From contig DATJYL010000222.1 in assembly GCA_035499655.1 (NCBI GenBank), positions 1 to 45,613 on the forward strand: a stretch of DNA of 45,613 bases. Direction: 5' to 3'. Shown here piece after piece: positions 41,588 to 45,613 of this stretch. The stretch comes from Pirellulales bacterium (GTDB lineage: Bacteria > Planctomycetota > Planctomycetia > Pirellulales > JADZDJ01). A model generated the notes under the pieces. The model had not been told where the DNA came from. It did not search any database and worked only from the letters and a program-made list of their open reading frames with translations. The position numbers were made by a program, and so were the translations under genes. Positions within the stretch are counted from its first letter, which is position 1, and each line of letters opens with the position of its first letter.

Positions 41588-41661
41588 GAGACCGTAGCTC
41601 AGTCCGGTAGAGCAACGGACTTTTAATCCGTAGGTCTTGGGTTCGAATCCCAACGGTCTCA
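41588..41661 (+). tRNA. tRNA-Lys (anticodon TTT)
   Basis: A 74-nt tRNA with acceptor stem GAGACCG/CGGTCTC and discriminator A. T-arm is TTGGG-TTCGAAT-CCCAA, and anticodon stem ACGGA/TCCGT encloses loop CTTTTAA, giving anticodon TTT. CCA is not encoded. Its 3' half is the probable insertion site for the adjacent recombinase element. Confidence 0.96.
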
Positions 41662-41733
41662 CTGATAGTTAAACACGGCTGAAATCACCACTTAGATTAC
41701 CTGTCGATGGTCGGCAGTGTGGCCCGTAAGTTC

Positions 41734-41763
41734 CCGAATAACCCGGTAGACTACCGGATTCGG
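41734..41763. promoter_or_regulatory. Strong inverted repeat in the integrase leader
   Basis: CCGAAT and ATTCGG flank CCGGTAG-A-CTACCGG; 13 base pairs can form with a 3-base bulge. Downstream sequence TCTTTTA and the CGGAG ribosome site (41771-41775) follow at once. It may be an operator, a recombinase arm site, or an attenuating terminator before the integrase start at 41785. Confidence 0.7.
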
Positions 41764-41784
41764 TCTTTTACGGAGTTACACGCT

Positions 41785-43026
41785 ATGACCACTCAATCTC
41801 TTCCACGCGTTCCCACGTATCGTCGCCACAAGCCCACTGGCCAAGCTGTTGTCACCCTGGACGGACACGACATTTATTTGGGCAAGTGGAACGCTACAGC
41901 GAGCCGTCAAGAGTACGATCGGCTAATCGGCGAATGGTTATCCGCTGGCCGTCGATTGCCCCGTGCCGCTGCGTCGCACGATACCACGATCATTGAATTG
42001 GCTGCCAGCTATTGGCGATTCGCCCAAGGTTACTATCGGAAAGACGGGAAACCGACGCGCTCTCTGGAGCGGGTCCGCCTTGCGCTAAAGGTGCTGCGGC
42101 AACTATACGGTCCAACTTGTGCCGGCGATTTTGGTCCCCTCGCCCTACAAGCAATTCAGCAGCGTTTCGTCAGGGAAGGGAAAGCCCGACCTTACGTCAA
42201 CTGCTTAATCGAAGAAATAAAGCGCGTGTTCAAGTGGGGTGTATCGCAAGAGTTGGTCCCAGCTTTGGTTTTCCAAGCCCTGGCCACGGTCCCAGGTTTG
42301 CGCAAAGGCAGAACCGACGCTCCGGAGCCGCAGCCGATCGGTCCGGTTGCAGCGGCGGTAGTCGATGCCACACTGCCCCATTTGCCACCCGTTGTCCGCG
42401 AAATGGTTCGTTTCCAATCGCTGACCGGCTGTCGACCGGGTGAAGTTTGTATTCTGCGCCCATGCGACATAGATCGTTCCGGCGACGTGTGGGCTTATCG
42501 CCCATCGACTCACAAAACTGAGCACCACAGCCGTCAACGGGTAATTTTCATTGGCCCACAGGCACAAGAGATTCTGCGGCCCTACTTGCTCCGTAATGCC
42601 GAAGCGTATTGTTTTGCGCCGGCCGATTCGGAACGTAAACGGCTGGATGCGCGCCACGAAATGCGCAAAACACCCCTTTCCTGCGGCAACCGGCCGGGCA
42701 CAAATCGCAAGCGCCGCAGGAAGATTGCACTTGGCGAGCGGTACGATACAAATGCGTACGCAAAGTGTGTTCGTCGTGCGTCTGACCTTGCCGATCGAAA
42801 AGGCCGCCAGCAAGCCCGCGACGCCGACCCCAATGTGAAAGATGATCGGATTATTCCGCGATGGTCCCCGAATCAACTGCGCCACAGCAAAGCCACTGAG
42901 GTGCGCCGGCGTTTCGGTTTGGAAGCCGTGCAAGTGGTGTTGGGTCACGCCAAGGCTGACGTGTCGCAAATCTACGCCGAACGCGACCTGGGCTTGGCGG
43001 AGCGCATCATGCGGGAAGTTGGATGA
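41785..43026 (+). CDS. Tyrosine recombinase / integrase
   Basis: 413-aa phage-type integrase. The N-terminal part (1-65) is an arm-binding-like region with YLGKWNATASRQEYD. A SAM-like core-binding domain spans about 66-160. Catalytic residues are R217 (GCRPGEV), K244 (THKTEHH), R366 in NQLRHSKATE, H388 (VLGHAK) and Y397 (SQIYAERD). The position two before LR, usually His in HxLR, is Asn363, so box II is altered. A basic/cysteine insert lies at about 280-350. The ATG at 41785 has CGGAG upstream. It lies next to tRNA-Lys in the orientation of an integrated element. Confidence 0.93.
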   Translation: MTTQSLPRVPTYRRHKPTGQAVVTLDGHDIYLGKWNATASRQEYDRLIGEWLSAGRRLPRAAASHDTTIIELAASYWRFAQGYYRKDGKPTRSLERVRLALKVLRQLYGPTCAGDFGPLALQAIQQRFVREGKARPYVNCLIEEIKRVFKWGVSQELVPALVFQALATVPGLRKGRTDAPEPQPIGPVAAAVVDATLPHLPPVVREMVRFQSLTGCRPGEVCILRPCDIDRSGDVWAYRPSTHKTEHHSRQRVIFIGPQAQEILRPYLLRNAEAYCFAPADSERKRLDARHEMRKTPLSCGNRPGTNRKRRRKIALGERYDTNAYAKCVRRASDLADRKGRQQARDADPNVKDDRIIPRWSPNQLRHSKATEVRRRFGLEAVQVVLGHAKADVSQIYAERDLGLAERIMREVG

Positions 43027-44791: not shown

Positions 44792-44807
44792 GCGCCCATC
44801 GGCTACA

Positions 44808-45095
44808 ATGCAGAATATGGCTGATTCTCAAGACAAAGCGCCCTGGACGCCGACAATGCTCGCCCTCTTGGGCAAAATGCCTGATGGTAAATTGGCCAAG
44901 TGCGTCGGCTGTACACGCCAGGCTGTCGAACTGCGCCGCCGCAAGGCTGGCATCCCACCGCTGGTGCGAAAAGTCAAACCGGCCAAGTGGGGCGAAACCG
45001 AAGTGGGGTTGCTGAGGAATTATTTGGACGCCGAGATTGCTAAAATGACGGGGCGCACACTGGCAGAGATTAAGGCGAAGCGGCGGAAACTCTGA
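44808..45095 (+). CDS. Small HTH-like repeat protein
   Basis: 95-aa basic protein with two similar halves: WTPTMLALLGKMPDGKLAKC with AVELRRRKAGIP, and WGETEVGLLRNYLDAEIAKM with LAEIKAKRRKL. This W-x-LL-D-x-A-x-G-R-x-A-R-R-K pattern is the SANT/HTH-like style seen in small planctomycete DNA-binding proteins. The start could be ATG 44808 or 44817; no clear ribosome site. It lies 16 bp after the GloVer gene and may regulate the element or be a fragment of a larger DNA-binding protein. Confidence 0.6.
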   Translation: MQNMADSQDKAPWTPTMLALLGKMPDGKLAKCVGCTRQAVELRRRKAGIPPLVRKVKPAKWGETEVGLLRNYLDAEIAKMTGRTLAEIKAKRRKL

Positions 45096-45195
45096 TTGTG
45101 TCCTACGCCAAAGTGCTTGACTGAAACATTAGAAATTGCATAATCCCTAGCGCGCGGGGGTGCTTTTTAGCAATTCAATAAATCGGGGCACAACG

Positions 45196-45613
45196 ATGAA
45201 ATTGAAAGACTTTCTTATTACAGGCAGACCGCCTGGGAAAATAATATTTCGTGCTGTAATCACGAACTCGCCAAATTCAAATTACGTCAAGATTGAAAAC
45301 AATCCTGACTTACAGTTGGAGTTTCGCAATGCAATTCAAAGAGAGCTACTCTATGAATTGCGGACAGCGCGATTGCAAGTAACACAAATCGAGATTGTCG
45401 ACGAGGGAGAAGGCAGTTGGTGGATTGAGTTTGCTGTGGCCCTTGGTGCGGCATATACATTCGTTGCGCAATACCACGATTTTTACGAAAGTGTTGTTCT
45501 AATTCGCCGTCAAGCGCGCGCAATTCTCAGAAGAATCGCCTCTGCTACTGGTACGATACTTTCTTCACTTGAAATTGTATGGATTGATCCGCAAACGGGC
45601 GCAAGGCGGCGCG
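45196..45613 (+). CDS. Partial gene of unknown function, running off the window
   Basis: An open frame from ATG 45196 continues without a stop to the last base (139 residues seen). It has a beta-rich, charged start (LKDFLITGRPPGKIIF, RAVITNSP), the segment EGSWWIEFAVALGAAYTF with one hydrophobic stretch around residues 73-92, then an amphipathic basic part (ESVVLIRRQARAILRRI) and a second hydrophobic run (TGTILSSLEIVWI). Codons are more AT-rich than in neighbouring genes. No family recognised. Confidence 0.6.
   Translation, partial: MKLKDFLITGRPPGKIIFRAVITNSPNSNYVKIENNPDLQLEFRNAIQRELLYELRTARLQVTQIEIVDEGEGSWWIEFAVALGAAYTFVAQYHDFYESVVLIRRQARAILRRIASATGTILSSLEIVWIDPQTGARRR

Follow-up and report, generated by a model that had tools for sequence, protein, structure and literature searches.

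A tRNA-Lys-associated integrase gene of a Pirellulales bacterium is preceded by a covarying leader RNA that may adopt two alternative folds

The window, i.e. the whole stretch of 45,613 bases that was analyzed, is an entire contig (C222) of a 4.54-Mb Pirellulales assembly of 244 contigs, and the contig ends inside an open reading frame. Close to this end a tRNA gene, an integrase gene and further open frames follow each other on one strand:

41588-41662, plus strand: tRNA-Lys(TTT), on the attL side (Rfam tRNA, 77.9 bits)
41785-43026, plus strand: tyrosine integrase of 413 aa (PF00589 and PHROG matches)
43319-44791, plus strand: GloVer-repeat/dockerin/PEP-CTERM exported protein of 490 aa, possible cargo (profile matches)
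44784-45095, plus strand: HTH-like protein, likely starting at ATG 44817, possible cargo (PHROG matches)
45160-45613, plus strand: orphan open frame, cut by the contig end (open reading frame)

A preliminary description of this DNA had listed a tRNA, a palindrome, an integrase, a GloVer/dockerin/PEP-CTERM protein, an HTH-like protein and an unfinished gene, and profile matches and coordinates bear out all of these. The right end was said to be out of view, and indeed the contig stops at 45613. The integrase adjoins the tRNA-Lys gene with a gap of 123 nt. It matches the PF00589 profile with 35.8 bits (cut-off 27.1) and the phrog_1 integrase family with an E-value of 8.6e-20. Its start was taken as ATG 41785 because a longer frame from 41707 crosses the palindrome and the relatives align from 41785. 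The palindrome, CCGAAT..ATTCGG at 41734-41763 with the core CCGGTA/TACCGG at 41743-41757, is present as described; its place in a leader RNA, where it would form hairpin P4 (see below), had been missed. The 490-aa protein has GloVer repeats (TIGR03803, 285.6 bits) in seven stretches, a dockerin domain and a PEP-CTERM motif. Matches to the 103-aa HTH-like protein were found in PHROG only (best phrog_323, E 4.5e-9); its gene has a second copy in the same genome and one copy in G001, a genome of the same genus. The last open frame has a match in 1 of 117 genomes of the order, which is its own genome.

Tyrosine recombinases have the active site R-K-H/KxxR-H/W-Y. The window integrase possesses the R, K, R, H and Y, and the first His of HxxR is replaced by Asn, the residue found at this position in 54 of 65 rows of the family (His in 9, Ser in 1, Tyr in 1). 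Relatives at E≤1e-40 occur in 66 of the 146 genomes of its order, with four matches in its own genome. The family integrase was found neither in PLSDB plasmids nor in INPHARED phages, and leader DNA was not found in plasmids; among viral contigs the integrase occurs at one locus and the leader pattern at none.

For the DNA upstream of the integrase we counted 69 of 73 distinct copies, those with at least 170 nt upstream, and left out four with shorter upstream DNA. A complete same-strand tRNA precedes 51 copies and a T-arm remnant 13, while 5 have neither: L063 has masked letters in the tRNA, and fragments of a tRNA are recognizable by eye in L080, L109 and L126 but not in L134. In L109 and L126 (tRNA-fMet) there is only an anticodon-loop fragment, joined straight to the upstream side of the integrase start, and the leader domain is missing. 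Across the family the gap between the tRNA end and the first aligned integrase codon is 108-168 nt. The tRNAs belong to 14 isotypes (Lys, Phe, Gly, Thr, Pro, Asn, Val, Arg, Ile, Met, Ala, Asp, Leu and His), the His case coming from a contig that ends within the integrase start. A quick tree was built from the 45 integrases that have a full tRNA; on it, the isotype requires 26 changes against a shuffled mean of 30.2, a value reached or undercut in 5 of 200 shuffles, and from these 26 changes we conclude that the clade switched its tRNA target often. The sister of the window integrase on this 45-row tree is a tRNA-Val copy (SH-aLRT 97).

A first attR test, which required exact 12-mers up to the tRNA end called by ARAGORN, found nothing and was replaced by an anticodon-loop query. 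Direct tRNA repeats running from the anticodon loop on were then found at 6 of 36 loci tested and an inverted repeat at one (L131); the remaining 29 gave none within the DNA available around each locus. The repeats start at the first anticodon-loop base in five of the six loci, and in the sixth two bases earlier with a mismatch. The bounded islands carry the following genes, as annotated from a scanned subset of their proteins:

L097: 63 bp repeat, 15.7 kb; second recombinase, ParB
L129, tRNA-Met: oriented 495-12164, 48 bp repeat, 11.7 kb; Cas1, Cas9 of 1067 aa
L112, tRNA-Met: 758-11727, 48 bp repeat, 11.0 kb; DUF3987, terminase small subunit, major head protein, Clp-like protease
L106: 45 bp repeat, 14.0 kb; LmuB-like (Lamassu-like) protein
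L128: 44 bp repeat, 11.1 kb; primase-helicase domains, head maturation protease
L105: 21 bp repeat, 7.4 kb; DUF1580, DUF3987

L097 and L106 contain tandem integrase copies, the second of which lies behind a tRNA 3' half. In an empty-site comparison for L128 all four genomes of the genus matched parts of the locus; its right flank is repeated, and the comparison yielded no simple empty site. At L131, two integrase copies of identical score are oppositely oriented and separated by about 10 kb, together with the inverted tRNA-Pro copy. Capsid-forming PICIs are phage satellites with their own head genes. The island in L112, with its integrase and the genes listed above in 11 kb, and that in L128 resemble such satellites. 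Satellite-like genes were seen in these two islands only and not in the window, and portal and tail genes were not found among the proteins scanned. In the open-access literature no paper on phage satellites in this phylum was found.

Judging from where the repeats start in these relatives, the 3' half of the window tRNA-Lys, from the anticodon loop at 41620 onward, would be supplied by the element. A search for a second copy of the tRNA-Lys 3' end had been proposed; this stretch is indeed part of the expected attR, but the site should start at the anticodon loop instead of comprising the 3' end alone. For the window element, attR would begin there with CTTTTAATCCGTAGG. In the genome assembly the 20-mer from the tRNA 3' end has no second copy, and the anticodon-loop 15-mer likewise has a single occurrence with up to one mismatch allowed. 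BLAST of the tRNA region against the same assembly gave no attR, and the 2.6 kb downstream of the window integrase contain no tRNA repeat. The proposal of an unusual cargo is therefore unsupported as stated: since the assembly shows no attR, the GloVer gene, the HTH-like gene and the last gene might be either cargo or flanking DNA.

The GloVer gene is the sole TIGR03803 locus in the genome, any match being present in 8 of 25 relatives including the own genome, and it sits in lower-GC DNA. Both properties are compatible with acquisition and do not prove it. At the loci examined no GloVer gene adjoins other family integrases, except for a dockerin-range match in L126, and phages gave no match. 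The locus might be an ordinary tRNA island that carries a GloVer surface protein as cargo behind an incidental leader. Islands at tRNA anticodon loops are common, accounting for 2083 of 3919 in the available text on Islander (PMC4383910), and the uniqueness of the GloVer gene would fit. We nevertheless regard this explanation as improbable, given that the right end is out of view and that the covariation and recurrence of the leader, described below, are not incidental.

An empty tRNA-Lys site in related genomes had been suggested as a comparison, and G001 provides it in part. By eye, the genes upstream of its tRNA-Lys are the same as in the window; the tRNA-Lys is 96% identical over 79 nt, the DNA after it differs, and the family integrase is absent from G001 at E≤1e-40. 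The site is not clean, however: 7.1 kb on, the tRNA 3' end recurs in degenerate form, followed by the same CTGATGTTTGCGCTAT. The G001 stretch itself (L049:6794-14054) appears as an older island remnant of 7.1 kb without the family integrase and with efflux-like genes by eye. We also followed the right-hand SRAP gene of G001 to contigs C220, C40 and C174 of G000 as candidates for the right end; these were dropped as none has a tRNA-Lys fragment. The 7.8-kb contig C220 (L136) has helicase-primase-like, Y-family-polymerase-like and SRAP-like frames by eye and is probably another mobile element. Together, the direct repeats in relatives and the comparison with G001 support the original view of a tRNA-associated integrative element, which is of a long-known kind, as the consulted account of Islander indicates (PMC4383910).

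The DNA between tRNA and integrase specifies a leader with the following elements:

41670-41726, plus strand: R1 leader RNA domain, three-way junction P1/P2/P3 (model R1, 65.4 bits; covariation)
41678-41681, plus strand: P1 5' strand, partner 41720-41723 (covariation, swap test)
41683-41698, plus strand: P2 hairpin, 41683-41686 with 41695-41698 (covariation)
41701-41717, plus strand: P3 hairpin, 41701-41707 with 41711-41717 (covariation, G-U bias)
41718-41732, plus strand: shared strand with extension, P1 3' strand and P5 5' strand (lone fold, swap test)
41734-41763, plus strand: P4 hairpin, identical to the palindrome (lone fold, dyad counts)
41765-41784, plus strand: P5 3' strand with the Shine-Dalgarno sequence GGAG at 41772-41775 (lone fold, swap test)

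Covariation was scored in two alignments. Eight of the 69 leaders had been set aside as not alignable, leaving 61 distinct leader domains, from which we picked 30 rows for gapless length (alignment A1, 57 columns). In A1, 96.9% of the 450 junction cells are paired and two-sided changes occur in 10 of 15 pairs; the covariation score is 0.375, compared to 0.188 in shuffled alignments (reached in 0 of 500) and at most 0.077 in slid ones. Alignment A2 consists of 29 sequences found by the covariance model and fitted to it, and here 12 of 15 pairs show two-sided changes with a score of 0.515 (0.165 shuffled, 0.071 slid). A1 and the model-found set have no genome in common, two A1 rows from named records lying outside this cross-check. 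RNAalifold on A1 did not call P2. Among 427 cells, P3 contains 23 G-U against 2 A-C combinations, as expected of an RNA read in the integrase sense. This excess is absent from P1 (16 vs 15) and P2 (12 vs 16) in the raw 61-row alignment, which we attribute to shifted rows.

The covariance model R1 found matches in 41 of 392 genomes of the phylum (E≤0.001, strict filters). Thirty loci from this search have a complete tRNA just upstream in 25 cases and a T-arm remnant in the others (3 clear, 2 doubtful), and a family integrase follows in 24 of the 30. Conversely, R1 precedes 55 of the 69 integrase copies and is absent (E≤0.01) from 14; it was not found in the viral-contig relative L172. Because the order tRNA-leader-integrase repeats in other genomes, the layout is more than chance. 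In four loci (L106, L124, L125 and L133) the leader is of a divergent type, its junction arm being longer, and is missed by the model. A search of 41480-43400 with 4227 Rfam models up to an E-value of 5 gave just the tRNA and low-scoring overlaps of it, and six relatives gave the tRNA alone at gathering thresholds. No report of such a leader RNA was found in the open-access literature. The Rhodopirellula-1 motif, a candidate cis-regulatory RNA of Proteobacteria and Planctomycetes, appears without an Rfam number in a table of Weinberg 2010 (PMC2864571). Compared by this table row alone, it is of the same kind and from the same phylum as R1 and might be the same thing (PMC2864571).

When the window leader was folded alone, P1 and P3 did not form; instead, the 3' strand of P1 and the bases following it paired around the Shine-Dalgarno sequence (fold B, z −2.88). 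The pairing partners were examined by a strand-swap test, in which native pairing energies were compared with those after swapping strands between leaders (5000 permutations, uncorrected for relatedness). From 87 R1 matches (58 + 29), 14 were left out because the integrase was missing or decayed, the match was at an edge or weak, or it was a near-duplicate; the script dropped 7 more, and the test covered 66 of 73 leaders. For P1 the native value was −6.57 versus −5.57 swapped (z −7.6), for P5 with the shared 7-mer −7.62 versus −6.37 (z −8.0) and for extended P5 −13.99 versus −10.17 (z −13.6), each with 0 of 5000 permutations as low. A control that paired the P1 5' strand with the stretch before the start gave −3.27 versus −3.45 (z +1.5). 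Native pairing beat the row's own median swap in 33 of 66 rows for P1, 44 for P5 and 64 for extended P5. An earlier P5 test of 52 of the 73 leaders under a strict start rule had given −13.8 against a permuted mean of −10.35 (0/5000). In L085, the segments GCTA, TGTAGC and CTACA are all altered in step within one row. Since both helices beat the swaps and the control fails, one strand co-evolves with two mutually exclusive partners, the P1 5' strand and the 20 nt that precede the start codon. A riboswitch-like leader is expected to have a covarying secondary structure in the 5' UTR and, mutually exclusive with it, a helix over the ribosome-binding site. The former is found here before the ATG, and the latter is found at the level of sequence.

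The same DNA could be a recombination module that combines attP arm or core sites with an operator serving the integrase or an excision factor; the hairpins would then be dyads bound by proteins. The conserved stretch is located where attL/attP binding sites belong, and integrases encoded next to a tRNA often control their own genes by binding DNA where the promoter overlaps attL, according to the portion of the KplE1 study consulted (PMC2951348). P4 was rejected as an RNA-specific hairpin: it shows no G-U strand bias (8 vs 7) and may therefore act as a dyad at the DNA level, and its dyad symmetry mostly has a GTA/TAC centre (53 of 87). The spacing in P4 varies between 2 nt (50 of 87) and 3 nt (29 of 87), which speaks against such a module, and the strand bias of P3, the three-way nesting and the two-partner coupling to the start codon are RNA-like. 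A pure DNA function of the leader thus seems unlikely to us.

We consider that the window contains the left end of an integrative island at a tRNA anticodon loop, with a two-fold leader RNA that gates integrase translation, and give this reading a probability of about two in three. The layout, the anticodon-loop repeats in relatives, the RNA-type covariation and the coupling of one strand to two partners all have support from sequence comparison; co-transcription with the tRNA, translational control and the choice of the ON fold are inferred. The integrase would recombine at the anticodon loop, and the island would restore the tRNA 3' half. In fold A, P1 would close the junction with P2 and P3, with P4 as a separate hairpin and the Shine-Dalgarno sequence free. 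In fold B, the P1 3' strand would pair around the Shine-Dalgarno sequence instead (P5, stacked on P4) and block translation. In the integrated state the integrase gene would lie behind the tRNA promoter, and by analogy with ICEKp1 (PMC13023037, consulted in part) tRNA and integrase may share one transcript; the switch would hold the integrase low and let its level rise under another condition.

In the available parts of the ICEKp1 report (PMC13023037), int of this Klebsiella element lies directly behind a same-direction tRNA and is driven by its promoter, and a structured 5' UTR attenuates int, lowering its output when the element is integrated. The stem-loops there are a potential terminator on tRNA-int transcripts, and similar ones occur in ICEEc1 and ICEclc (PMC13023037). 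The window shares the gene order and the structured leader. That account concerns one ICE, whereas R1 is one covarying three-way junction with an alternative Shine-Dalgarno helix, phylum-wide and at 14 isotypes; the type of element differs as well, no conjugation genes having been seen in the six, partially annotated islands. The precedent raises the possibility that the leader is a transcription attenuator or an RNA-processing element that substitutes for the displaced tRNA terminator, without translational switching, and the constant position of the leader behind the tRNA, in sense, would suit this. Consensus searches of 41400-41900 revealed neither a sigma-70 promoter nor an intrinsic terminator, and P5 extends to the Shine-Dalgarno sequence and start region, beyond what a terminator needs; attenuation alone is conceivable but not what we would expect. 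The integrases of the KplE1 IntS and STI-type pairs likewise follow a tRNA in the same orientation and are under tight attL control; as far as the consulted text goes, KplE1 IntS is autoregulated by DNA binding, whereas the evidence here is of the RNA type (PMC2951348).

A doubtful extension of the two-fold leader is that the bistable RNA reads the integration state, a full tRNA being upstream in the chromosome and only the tRNA 3' half in the excised circle. Folding, 5' or 3' processing or charging of the tRNA would then tip P1 versus P5 and set integrase translation. If so, elements directed at any tRNA could share one RNA module, and the constancy of R1 over the 14 isotypes would be explained. 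The level of the integrase decides whether a tRNA island stays or leaves. If real, a conserved RNA switch would be a control layer distinct from the mechanisms described for such genes, namely DNA-binding autoregulation and promoter switching, and model R1 offers a sequence handle for finding such elements, including islands with phage head genes or Cas9.
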